This document shows, piece by piece, positions 1,216 to 7,437 of a stretch of 64,000 nucleotides of DNA; the first letter of the stretch is position 1; every line of letters starts with the position of its first letter. The DNA comes from Pseudotabrizicola formosa. GTDB lineage: Bacteria; Pseudomonadota; Alphaproteobacteria; Rhodobacterales; Rhodobacteraceae. Location: positions 62,001-126,000 of the forward strand of contig NZ_PJOM01000001.1 in assembly GCF_002900965.1 (NCBI RefSeq). Reading direction: 5' to 3'. Both the position numbers and the translations under genes were made by a program. The notes below the pieces were generated by a model, which was not told the origin of the DNA, did no database searches, and saw only the letters and a program-made list of their open reading frames with translations.

Positions 1216-2751
1216 TCACCGGTCCTGTGCACTGGCCCGACCATCCTCGTCAGGGCCGGTGTCAGACAGGGCGCGCGTGATTTCCTCCAGCAAGACCGGC
1301 AAGCGGATCGGCTTGCTGGCATAGCCCTGCATGCCCATCTGCAGGCAGCGCTCCCGCTCTCCGCCCATCGCATTTGCGGTCAAGGCAACCACCCGCACCT
1401 GTGACCAGGGTTCCCCCGACCGGCGGATGGCCTGCAAGGTCGCGGCACCATCCATCACCGGCATCTGCATGTCGAGCAGAACCAGATCAACCGCGCATTC
1501 GGCCAGAACGGCCAGACACTCAAGGCCGCCCGCGGCCTCATGGCAGATGGCGCCCAAGGGCGTCAGAAGGCCGCCAGCCACGCGGCGGTTTACCGCGCTG
1601 TCATCCACCACAAGAATGGAAATGCCCTGCAAGTCGCGCCGCGCAAAGGTTTTTTGCGACTCTGCCTCGATCTGTGATGCAGCAGCCGGCGCAACCCTTT
1701 GCGCAAGGAACCGGAAGACAAAGGACGATCCCGCCCCGGGGGCAGAGGTGACGCTGATATCGCCACCCATCATCCGCGCCAGCCGGCGCGAAATGGCCAG
1801 CCCCAGACCCGTACCACCATAGTCCTTGACTGTGGTCGCTTCCGCCTGGGTAAAGGCCTCAAACAGCCGCTTTTGCGCCAGCGGATCAATGCCGATCCCG
1901 GTATCCGTTACGGTCAGCACCACCTCTGTCTGCCCGTCGTCCAGCAGGGTGGTGGACAAGGTGACCGCAATTGTGCCGCCTGTGGTGAACTTGACCGCAT
2001 TGGACACCAGATTGCCCAGACATTGCCGGACCCGCACAGAATCGTACAGCAACCGTTCGGGCGTGCCGGGCGCAGCGGCAAAGGTCAGCGCGGTGCCGTT
2101 CTCTGTGGCCCTTGCCTGAAACAGCGCAACCGTGTCTTCAAGGGATTTGATCAGCGCATGAGGCGCAGGCTGAAGATCCATCCGCCCGGCCTCGATCCGC
2201 GACAGATCAAGGATATCGTCGATCAACGACATCAGCATGTCACCGGAAACCCGGATCAGCCGCAGGTTTTCGCGCTGGCTCTGTGTCAGCTCAGTCGCGT
2301 CCAGCACCTGGACCATCCCCAGCACGCCGTTCATCGGTGTCCGGATTTCATGACTGATGTTTGCCAGAAACTCTGATTTTGCCCGGCTCGCCAATGTGGC
2401 CTGCGTCAAGGCATCGTTCAGCTTGCGCTGGGCGCCATTCAGGCGCCGCATGATCGTATCTGCATAAAGCACGGCGGGCACGGCAATGATCAATGACACG
2501 ATCAAAGAGATCACGACCACAATCCGGTAGAAATTTGCCTGCGGGTAGGGGCCCAGCATCGGTTCAAGCACAACCGCCAGCGACAGCGATAACAGCAGGC
2601 TGCAAGCGACGATTGACGCCACCAGAGTGGCGTTCAGACGACGGGCACTGATGCCTTCGGTCAGCCGCAGAAAATGGTCAAGCAGGCGGGCACGCCGCCC
2701 AGCGTGGTCTCGGATGCTGTTCAAGGGCCGTGGGGACTTAGGCTTGGTCAT
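1216..2751 (-). CDS. hybrid sensor histidine kinase with C-terminal receiver domain
   Basis: A 511-residue membrane-bound hybrid kinase. Two hydrophobic segments (about 41-63 and 76-97) enclose only a very short loop, so there is no real periplasmic sensor domain. Next come a HisKA domain with the phospho-accepting His134 in SHEIRTP, an HATPase with N box (NLVSNAVKFT, ~247-256), G1 (DTGIGI) and G2 (GGTGLGL), and a receiver domain from about 375 to 500 with acidic pair VVDD and phospho-acceptor Asp427 in LLDMQMP, plus the ALTA and SKP switch residues. The architecture His-Asp without its own Hpt suggests that phosphate moves on through a separate Hpt protein, and one is encoded at 47371-47697. 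No cognate response regulator is adjacent. The input signal is unknown. Confidence 0.9.
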   Translation of the reverse strand: MTKPKSPRPLNSIRDHAGRRARLLDHFLRLTEGISARRLNATLVASIVACSLLLSLSLAVVLEPMLGPYPQANFYRIVVVISLIVSLIIAVPAVLYADTIMRRLNGAQRKLNDALTQATLASRAKSEFLANISHEIRTPMNGVLGMVQVLDATELTQSQRENLRLIRVSGDMLMSLIDDILDLSRIEAGRMDLQPAPHALIKSLEDTVALFQARATENGTALTFAAAPGTPERLLYDSVRVRQCLGNLVSNAVKFTTGGTIAVTLSTTLLDDGQTEVVLTVTDTGIGIDPLAQKRLFEAFTQAEATTVKDYGGTGLGLAISRRLARMMGGDISVTSAPGAGSSFVFRFLAQRVAPAAASQIEAESQKTFARRDLQGISILVVDDSAVNRRVAGGLLTPLGAICHEAAGGLECLAVLAECAVDLVLLDMQMPVMDGAATLQAIRRSGEPWSQVRVVALTANAMGGERERCLQMGMQGYASKPIRLPVLLEEITRALSDTGPDEDGRASAQDR

Positions 2752-2868
2752 TTTCGCTGCTGTGCTTTCTTGCCCCGGTTTTAATCCATACGTTGAATCG
2801 ACGGGCGCGTGAAACCAATAAAGCGATCAATTTTGGCGGTGTGCAATCGCGGCTAAAGTCGTGCTGAG

Positions 2869-2934
2869 GCCGGCGCTACTTGCGCGGCAGGCCGGCGCTA
2901 CTTGCGCGGCAGGCCGGCGCTATTTGCGCGGCAT
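2869..2934. repeat. three tandem copies of a 22-bp GC-rich unit
   Basis: Positions 2869-2890, 2891-2912 and 2913-2934 carry the same 22-bp unit, which starts GCCGGCGCTACT and ends TGCGCGGCAG. Copies 1 and 2 are identical; copy 3 has one internal C-to-T change (at 2922) and a different last base. The array sits in the divergent gap between the hybrid kinase start (2751) and the DUF1403 gene start (2972). Two helical turns per unit would suit a protein bound on one DNA face, but that is inference. Confidence 0.9.
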
Positions 2935-2971
2935 GCTTGCCCAAAGCGCCGGACTGATCTAGCCTTCTTGC

Positions 2972-3862
2972 ATGAAGCCTGTTCCCCCTCCACCGCAACC
3001 AGCCCTTTCGCCTCTGCCGGTGATGCCGGGGTGGATCGCACTGGGGCGGGCAGAATCGGTCGAAGACCTGGCCTTTTTGTCCGGAGCGGCGCTGGCGCAC
3101 GTGCATGGGGCAATCCTTCGCCCCGATATCCCCCAGGCCCTGTGGCGCGCCCGGCTGGCACTGGCGGCGGCAGAGGTTTGCGTGCGGATGGCCGGGCGGC
3201 CAGAGCGTGCCGGGGCGCTGCGCGACGCCTTGTATCTGACCCGTCCCGGCGATCAGCCCGGTCCGGCGGGGGAGGTGTTTGGCCAGTGGCTGCGGGCGAC
3301 AGAACGGCCCGTCTCGGTGGCGGCCCTGTCGCGCGCCCTGCCCAAGGTTCCAGCCGACCGGATCGCAAAGCTGCTGGGCTCGTCTCAGGGGTCGCCGGTC
3401 TCTCGCGCCGCTGCGGTGATTCAGACAGTGCTGGCAGAGAGCCCGCGTTCGGAAACACCTGCGCTCATTCTGGGGGAGGCGGTGCTGGCACAGGCTCTGG
3501 GTTGGTCGCATCTGTTGCCCCTGCTGGCGGCAGGGCTGGCGCCGCGCGATCTGCGCCAGACCGATGCGGCGCTGCGGCTGGCCTGCCACCGGGCGGTCAT
3601 TGCTGCGGCCCGACCGGCCCTGCAAATGGCGGCGGATCTGGGGCGCAAGGCCGACAGGTTGCATGCGGTCGCGCCCAAGCTGAGGGCCAAGGGTGCCACG
3701 CAGGCGGTTGACCTGTTCCTGACCCGTGATGCCCTGACCGCGCCCGCGCTGGTCCCCATCTTGTCGGACCGCGCGGCACGGCGGCTCTGCGACCGTCTGG
3801 TTCTGCTCGGGGCGGTGCGCGAACTGACCGGGCGCGACACGTTCCGTCTGTACGGCCTATAG
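2972..3862 (+). CDS. DUF1403 family protein
   Basis: A 296-residue soluble, alanine/leucine/arginine-rich, largely helical protein with no signal peptide or membrane segment. The overall sequence (start MKPVPPPPQP, middle ILGEAVLAQALGW, end LVLLGAVRELTGRDTF) matches what I know of DUF1403, a family of about 300 residues found in rhizobia and Rhodobacterales. No catalytic motif is visible and the molecular function is not known. It is followed after 2 bp by an scpB-like gene, so the two are almost certainly co-transcribed and probably act together; this points towards chromosome or plasmid segregation as an inference from context only. The 22-bp repeat array lies 38 bp upstream and may control the pair. 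Confidence 0.75.
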   Translation: MKPVPPPPQPALSPLPVMPGWIALGRAESVEDLAFLSGAALAHVHGAILRPDIPQALWRARLALAAAEVCVRMAGRPERAGALRDALYLTRPGDQPGPAGEVFGQWLRATERPVSVAALSRALPKVPADRIAKLLGSSQGSPVSRAAAVIQTVLAESPRSETPALILGEAVLAQALGWSHLLPLLAAGLAPRDLRQTDAALRLACHRAVIAAARPALQMAADLGRKADRLHAVAPKLRAKGATQAVDLFLTRDALTAPALVPILSDRAARRLCDRLVLLGAVRELTGRDTFRLYGL

Positions 3863-3864
3863 AA

Positions 3865-4446
3865 GTGTCGGGGCGTGAACCCTCTGCCTTTGATGCGGAA
3901 CTGGCTGATCTGCCGGCCGATCTGCGCTGGCGCCACTGGATGCGGCGGATAGAGGCGGTGCTCTTTGCCAGTGCTGCGCCGGTGCCGCGCGAAGATCTTG
4001 CGCGGGTCGTGGGCAGGGAGGCAAGTCTGGACATGCTGATTGCAGATCTGGCGGCAGATCTGGAAGATCGGCCCTATACCGTGGCGCGGGTGGGAGTGGG
4101 CTGGGTGCTGCGCACCCGCCCGGCTTTCGCGCAGGCCATCCGCACGGCCGCGGATGTCACGCCTCAGGCGCTGAACCTTGATGCCTTCGACACCGCCGTA
4201 CTTGCGGCCATCGCCTATCATCAGCCCATCACCCGCGACGGGCTGCGCGAGATTTTTGGCAAGGACATCAGCCGCGATCTGATCGGCCGCCTGTTCGACC
4301 GCGCCCTGATCGCCGCGGGCCCGCGCGCGCCGCGCCGGGGCGCGCCTTACACCTTTGTGACCACAGATGCTTTCCTGGCCGCCTTCGGGCTGGAAAGCCT
4401 CGCCGACCTGCCGGATGCCGAGCAGTTGCGGGATGCGACAGGTTAG
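3865..4446 (+). CDS. ScpB-like condensin subunit (accessory copy)
   Basis: A 193-residue protein starting at GTG two bases after the DUF1403 stop. Two winged-helix-like halves are visible: residues ~25-85 (IEAVLFASAAPVPREDLARV) and ~105-180 (DTAVLAAIAYHQPITRDGLREIFGKDIS, then LIGRLFDRALI and APYTFVTTDAFLAAFGL). These are the hallmarks of ScpB, the dimeric kite subunit that binds ScpA in the SMC-ScpAB complex. No scpA lies beside it, unlike the canonical scpA-scpB arrangement, so I take it to be a second, accessory copy dedicated to the DUF1403 system. Whether it still binds the chromosomal ScpA is not visible from sequence. Confidence 0.8.
   Translation: MSGREPSAFDAELADLPADLRWRHWMRRIEAVLFASAAPVPREDLARVVGREASLDMLIADLAADLEDRPYTVARVGVGWVLRTRPAFAQAIRTAADVTPQALNLDAFDTAVLAAIAYHQPITRDGLREIFGKDISRDLIGRLFDRALIAAGPRAPRRGAPYTFVTTDAFLAAFGLESLADLPDAEQLRDATG

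Positions 4447-4983: not shown

Positions 4984-7437
<2,454 letters not shown>

Follow-up and report, generated by a model that had tools for sequence, protein, structure and literature searches.

Why should a bacterial genome encode a second ScpB, placed beside a gene for the DUF1403 domain rather than beside ScpA? The question is raised by the window studied here, a 64,000-nucleotide stretch of the Pseudotabrizicola formosa genome, in which a DUF1403 gene and an scpB gene lie on the same strand, 2 bp apart, next to three 22-bp repeats (Table 1). A preliminary description of this DNA had reported the pair, its spacing and the repeats, had noted the lack of a nearby scpA and had suggested an accessory module, perhaps a variant condensin loader or a defense system. 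Matches to PF07183 and PF04079 bear out the pair and its coordinates, and the repeats are indeed present. The sole ScpA match of the genome (3.70 Mb in 14 contigs) is on another contig, C7, where it adjoins a canonical ScpB; none lies beside the window ScpB. With two ScpB matches in the genome, one in the window and one on C7, the idea of a dedicated second ScpB apart from a canonical scpAB pair is upheld.

Table 1. Positions of the features discussed (window coordinates unless a contig or accession is given)
Feature	Position	Strand	Remarks
DUF1403 gene	2972..3862	+	296 aa; PF07183, E 3.7e-81
ScpB gene, module-specific paralogue	3865..4446	+	193 aa, GTG start; PF04079, E 3.6e-33
Three tandem 22-bp copies with the IR left arm GGCGCT	2868..2933	+	
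IR	2915..2952	+	left arm GGCGCT at 2916, right arm AAAGCGCC at 2943
Promoter-like hexamers	TTGCCC 2937-2942, TAGCCT 2960-2965	+	consensus resemblance only
DUF1403 C-terminal winged-helix part	3704..3859	+	residues 245-296; candidate DNA-binding domain
Tyrosine recombinase (TR) of the window genome	C1:59509-60597	opposite to DUF1403	1.4-2.5 kb beyond the left end of the window
P. pseudonitzschiae SC1-35 cointegrate loci	NZ_CP086905.1 80000-98000 (L157); 170000-184000 (L161)		

The window ScpB scores 83.7 bits against the NCBI ScpB equivalog, below the cutoff of 89.2; the canonical ScpB of the same genome scores 112.7. In a tree of 47 ScpB sequences, made up of the window protein, the full set of 16 canonical proteins and a random choice of 30 others out of 109 distinct module-type sequences, a single branch with support of 100/100 divides the module type from canonical ScpB, with a long-branch warning at this place. 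The window protein thus shares its family with the ScpB of the SMC-ScpAB system, but the module in this genome is without ScpA, its ScpB falls in a separate group, and the canonical pair is encoded elsewhere.

Judged from gene order and sequence, the pair is usually one half of an alphaproteobacterial plasmid module, TR <- site -> DUF1403-ScpB, and it is not a stand-alone condensin. Using tblastn, we found a DUF1403 match in 685 of 72,556 plasmid records and a ScpB match in 737, the latter number including a few canonical ScpB; the first-listed genera belong to Rhodobacterales and Rhizobiales. The two genes are adjacent in each of six annotated plasmid records, and repABC-type genes occur in the same stretch in four. 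In four records, the start of an opposite-strand TR is found about 125 bp ahead of DUF1403; in the other two, the TR has another place in the same stretch. It carries an integrase annotation in the six. Among 30 loci examined of 56 match rows, ScpB was present in all 30 and a TR within 1.5 kb in 21, the window locus being one of the other nine. We further analyzed 80 named loci, not a random sample but those that best matched the query among at least 520 confirmed relatives. ScpB adjoins DUF1403 in 79 of these and lies further on in one, which confirms that the neighborhood of DUF1403 is not random. A TR directly neighbors the pair in 42 loci and has some other place in a further 17; in the remaining 21, nine of which offer less than 3 kb of sequence on the upstream side, no TR was found. 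With queries that included general ParA, 60 of the 80 loci yielded a replication or partition gene. At L083 and L021, several hundred bases of insertion-like sequence separate DUF1403 from ScpB. Directly 3' of ScpB, TniB/Mu-type transposase genes are found at L035 (plasmid pRL10 of R. johnstonii) and at L157, L159, L160 and L161 (P. pseudonitzschiae plasmids), and the module may be an insertion target for such transposons. The suggestion of a defense system found no support: neither DUF1403 nor ScpB matched any PADLOC family at E up to 0.01. Of 29 stretches of viral contigs that fit a pattern, none encodes a relative.

The site between the two halves of the module has a composite structure. 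Its core, TCCGATAA-N7-TTATYGGA, is Xer-like, with two inverted arms around a 7-bp center; if up to 2 mismatches are allowed, 65 of the 80 best named loci have this core next to DUF1403. After the core, still within the gap between TR and DUF1403, comes an inverted repeat (IR) with the arms GGCGgTT and AAaGCGCC. We sought the right arm between 60 and 88 bp from the core in 106 distinct sites; in 102 it is at an offset of 72-73 bp, counted from where the core starts, and the search expression missed it in the other four. That expression had been widened after variants were spotted by eye; the narrower one recovered the arm in 80 of 89 sites (75 at 73 bp, four at 72 and one at 74). An equally good match is found at 1.6% of random places in the same DNA. 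Where both arms were matched, they are 27 bp apart at 62 of 67 sites. Core and gene pair also keep company across genomes: of 198 genomes from the family, 39 are positive for DUF1403 and 24 contain the core pattern, each of the 24 being DUF1403-positive (Fisher p 5e-21, kinship not corrected); a reversed control pattern is absent from all 198. These genomes hold 31 distinct core sites on 31 contigs, one contig-end overlap having been merged. A single working core per plasmid also fits the layout of a 281-kb plasmid, in which a 34-kb stretch contains one site that is perfect but for its first base, along with two more DUF1403-ScpB copies whose cores have decayed. A class-wide comparison over 385 genomes was dropped as too sparse, with DUF1403 in four at E up to 0.001 (three over the cutoff) and the core pattern in three. 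One of the latter, G206, has a core-like palindrome (C1:71809-71833, L150) and no DUF1403 match.

Sites that stand apart from the gene pair bear on the role of the IR. Thirteen of the 106 are orphans, for which the following 1.3 kb gave no match to DUF1403; at L203, only 331 bases follow the site, and at L047 DUF1403 is found about 2.4 kb further on. The IR is kept at 72-73 bp in all 13, but a -10-like box (TA and at least three of the six letters of TAGGCT) is present in just three, against 91 of the 93 gene-linked sites (p 5.6e-10). Since orphan sites keep the IR and have mostly lost the promoter, the IR appears to be a component of the recombination site and not a mere operator; most likely, it doubles as an operator where a gene follows. 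The two roles are kept apart at L047, where the TR spans 2434-3553, a core with its IR begins at 3539, and DUF1403 is at 6001. Here, the IR occurs twice: one copy accompanies the TR and core, the second sits at the promoter of DUF1403, and other sequence separates the two.

At the window locus, the IR arms show the 27-bp spacing of most plasmid sites, and this IR is a candidate binding site for DUF1403 and/or ScpB. The right arm sits between the two promoter-like hexamers, which are 17 bp apart. No core was found in or near the locus, the best match in C1:57001-66600 having 7 mismatches. Its expected position, reckoned from the right arm as in the plasmid loci (about 2870-2893), is occupied by the 22-bp copies. 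Their left arms are at 2872, 2894 and 2916, in steps of 22 bp, so that the first two are extra and precede the IR. At L039, the closest relative among the matches listed (DUF1403 84% identical), there is a single left arm only. The preliminary description had regarded the repeats as an array of candidate cis-sites. Cis-sequences do lie beside the pair; we dropped the notion of an independent array, because the repeats are copies of the IR left arm and L039 has just one. By this comparison, the most plausible origin of the repeats is a tandem duplication specific to the lineage (a local triplication of that arm), and the extra copies may offer added binding sites.

The TR of this genome lies outside the window. 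Along with the core and the mainly plasmid nature of the module, it was missed by the preliminary reading of an accessory module, of which the dedicated ScpB/DUF1403 pair stands. It is the sole TR match in the genome, is 72% identical to a plasmid TR, matches PF00589 (E 1.5e-13) and is separated from DUF1403 by genes for an aldehyde dehydrogenase and a histidine kinase. The motifs GLRRSE, HSLRAG, LGHAS and RRY, which we take to be of the catalytic type, are all present. Two plasmid TRs that were scored fail the NCBIfam cutoffs for orthologues of both XerC (55.2 and 57.7 bits; cutoff 335.15) and XerD (48.9 and 54.2 bits; cutoff 329.6).

DUF1403 itself is predicted, from a structural model, to combine a Fic fold with a C-terminal winged helix. 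Winged-helix chains match residues ~227-296 of the model, and the C terminus shows a weak match to HTH_13 (22.2 bits, below the cutoff of 26.1). Searched against PDB sequences, the DUF1403 profile gave no match at E up to 1. Identity to Fic proteins such as SO_4266 of Shewanella (3eqx) is 13%, and DUF1403 differs from them in that HPFx[DEN]GNxR, presumably the Fic enzyme motif, occurs in none of 52 DUF1403 sequences. There are no kleisins among the 50 structure matches listed, although their absence there is no proof. After the Fic-like model, we set aside DUF1403 as a replacement for ScpA, and the variant condensin loader of the preliminary description seems improbable.

If the window locus has no core, on what might its proteins act? 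Perfect sites of core plus IR occur in this genome only on contigs C12 and C13. C12 most likely represents a RepABC plasmid that is circular and 82,789 bp in size, because its ends share an overlap of 13,445 identical bases (L132/L133); it has one site, about 1.2 kb behind repC. C13 is a 58.8-kb contig with a ParA-type gene. Whole-genome searches gave no match to TR, DUF1403 or ScpB on either contig; in the window lineage, all three genes are chromosomal, near gyrB/dnaA, without a core. We infer that these chromosomal genes probably act in trans on the C12 and C13 sites. Two further genomes resemble this one in having the site and the gene pair on separate contigs: in G026, C7 carries a core and TR fragments, and the large contig C22 an unbroken TR frame together with DUF1403-ScpB; in G078, C37 carries a core and TR, and C160 carries DUF1403-ScpB. 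Sixteen genomes were chosen because a DUF1403 locus in them has no intact core next to it; 11 of these contain a core elsewhere (in G010 beside a second DUF1403 copy and in the L047 genome 2.4 kb off in the same locus), and five contain none. One of the five is P. sediminis (G594; locus L039), which has its gene order in common with the window and keeps the chromosomal genes; its assembly contains no core at up to 1 mismatch. Between the two species, dN/dS is 0.19 for DUF1403, 0.11 for ScpB and 0.16 for TR, with 0.03 for gyrB; by these ratios, the three genes look to be under purifying selection in both.

Taking these findings together, we propose, with a probability of roughly 0.6, that DUF1403 and ScpB are components of a four-part module for site-specific recombination, which most likely resolves plasmid multimers and probably acts in trans in the window lineage. 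The Xer-like TR would bind the core and pair two cores. DUF1403, through its winged helix and probably together with ScpB, would bind the IR at its fixed distance of 72-73 bp from the core, and the resulting nucleoprotein complex would control the TR, determining when, and between which sites, exchange takes place. As the IR overlaps the DUF1403 promoter at gene-linked sites, the pair probably also represses its own expression. ScpB may, in addition, tether the complex to the SMC-ScpA of the host. In the window lineage, a single chromosomal set of genes would probably serve the sites of two plasmids. Several results weigh against the proposal: the five of the 16 chosen genomes that contain no core, P. 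sediminis among them; the scores of the two plasmid TRs, far below the XerC and XerD cutoffs; the 21 loci in which no TR was found; and the persistence of a cointegrate plasmid with two sites, described below.

Xer-type plasmid resolution with accessory proteins is the closest kind of system known to us. Multimers of ColE1-type plasmids are resolved by XerCD at cer with ArgR and PepA, accessory proteins that steer the exchange. The module resembles this arrangement in its tyrosine recombinase, its short core and its accessory sequence at a fixed distance, and in that the accessory factors at cer are proteins of other origin, often chromosomal and acting in trans. It differs in having its own TR, far below the XerC and XerD cutoffs, and in its candidate accessory proteins, DUF1403 and ScpB, which are usually encoded beside the site. 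With FtsK-XerCD-dif and the XerD of B. subtilis, an unloader of SMC (PMC13342612), it has in common a two-arm core, one per replicon, and a Xer-type protein with a link to SMC, putative in the case of the module; unlike dif, it has an IR at a fixed distance and a dedicated ScpB with DUF1403 and is mainly plasmid-borne. Recombinases encoded near repABC offer a third parallel. PMC10194956 describes rhizobial ones downstream of repABC, namely, the XerD-like CDS5 of pSmeLPU88b, for which a role in plasmid maintenance is proposed, and RinQ, which differs from the TR in belonging to the invertase/resolvase family; ScpB, condensation and DUF are not mentioned in its main text.

A fuller version of the proposal, which we offer as speculation, makes the composite site a miniature plasmid terminus. 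The TR at the core and DUF1403-ScpB at the IR would resolve multimers and hand over or unload SMC by way of their own ScpB; recombination would be licensed by the passage of SMC, much as FtsK licenses XerCD; DUF1403 would be a Fic fold turned into a DNA-binding scaffold; and a chromosomal copy would serve several plasmids in trans. Alternatively, the site might chiefly handle SMC, with the TR on the core as a roadblock or platform (compare XerD at dif in B. subtilis), DUF1403-ScpB recruiting, stalling or unloading SMC-ScpA, and recombination secondary or absent. We consider this alternative possible but improbable. It would explain a dedicated ScpB, which is hard to account for with a pure recombinase, and PMC13342612 cites the unloading of SMC by XerD at dif and presents a Hi-C pattern that suggests the same for a large replicon. 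The 197,667-bp plasmid of P. pseudonitzschiae SC1-35 also speaks for it: two full sites persist there, identically oriented, along with both sets of genes, one of which has a TR with a changed front. By its length and flanks, this plasmid is a fusion of the 87- and 110-kb plasmids known from sister strains, and its persistence with two sites implies that resolution is incomplete or absent in that culture. The cointegrate looks like a product of homologous recombination, which would leave junctions where they are seen: inside DUF1403 and ~28 bp to the left of the core, where a conversion-like patch begins. These places are outside the core, and we rejected the plasmid as proof of a core crossover. 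Against a site that merely handles SMC stand the catalytic-looking motifs of the TR, the purifying selection on this protein and the Xer-like two-arm symmetry of the core.

Another view would treat the module as an integrase-type mobile element, with the core as its attachment site and DUF1403-ScpB as control proteins of an integrating plasmid. The integrase annotation of the TR and the chromosomal position of the window copy agree with this, as does the survival of the right core half alone in six of the 80 best named loci (L040, L078, L087, L088, L090 and L098, of which L087, L088 and L090 are from one strain). L004, L012 and L017 likewise retain just the right half, with differing sequence in place of the left arm, damaged in the case of L012. 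Such half-cores could have arisen when secondary sites took part in earlier exchanges, or they could simply have decayed. The single core per contig in the 198 genomes, the replication or partition gene in most of the best named DUF1403 loci and the lack of a core at either end of the window gene set (C1:57001-66600, best match 7 mismatches) make a mobile element unlikely.

It is very unlikely that the window copy is a chromosomal relic of a lost plasmid, with the IR as a mere operator: the copy has no adjacent core, nor does the P. sediminis assembly have any, but the three genes are intact, with dN/dS of 0.11-0.19, their order is common to two species, and perfect sites exist on two plasmids of the same genome. 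Hardly more can be said for a stand-alone variant condensin or loader with DUF1403 in place of ScpA and ScpB as its kite partner, as the ScpB family match and the constant pairing with DUF1403 would have it, given the predicted Fic-like fold and the core, IR and, in most loci, TR that accompany the pair.

The four-part module, in which plasmid multimer resolution is the most likely function, is likely novel: in the literature searched, mostly open-access, the word DUF1403 is absent, and no paper listed describes the module in its title or the start of its abstract. To our knowledge, how large low-copy RepABC plasmids stay monomeric has been poorly described. The module is found on hundreds of sequenced plasmids and provides exact parts to test. 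It would give DUF1403, a domain of unknown function, a role, and a recombinase with a condensin kite subunit of its own would open the connection of Xer recombination with SMC to direct testing.
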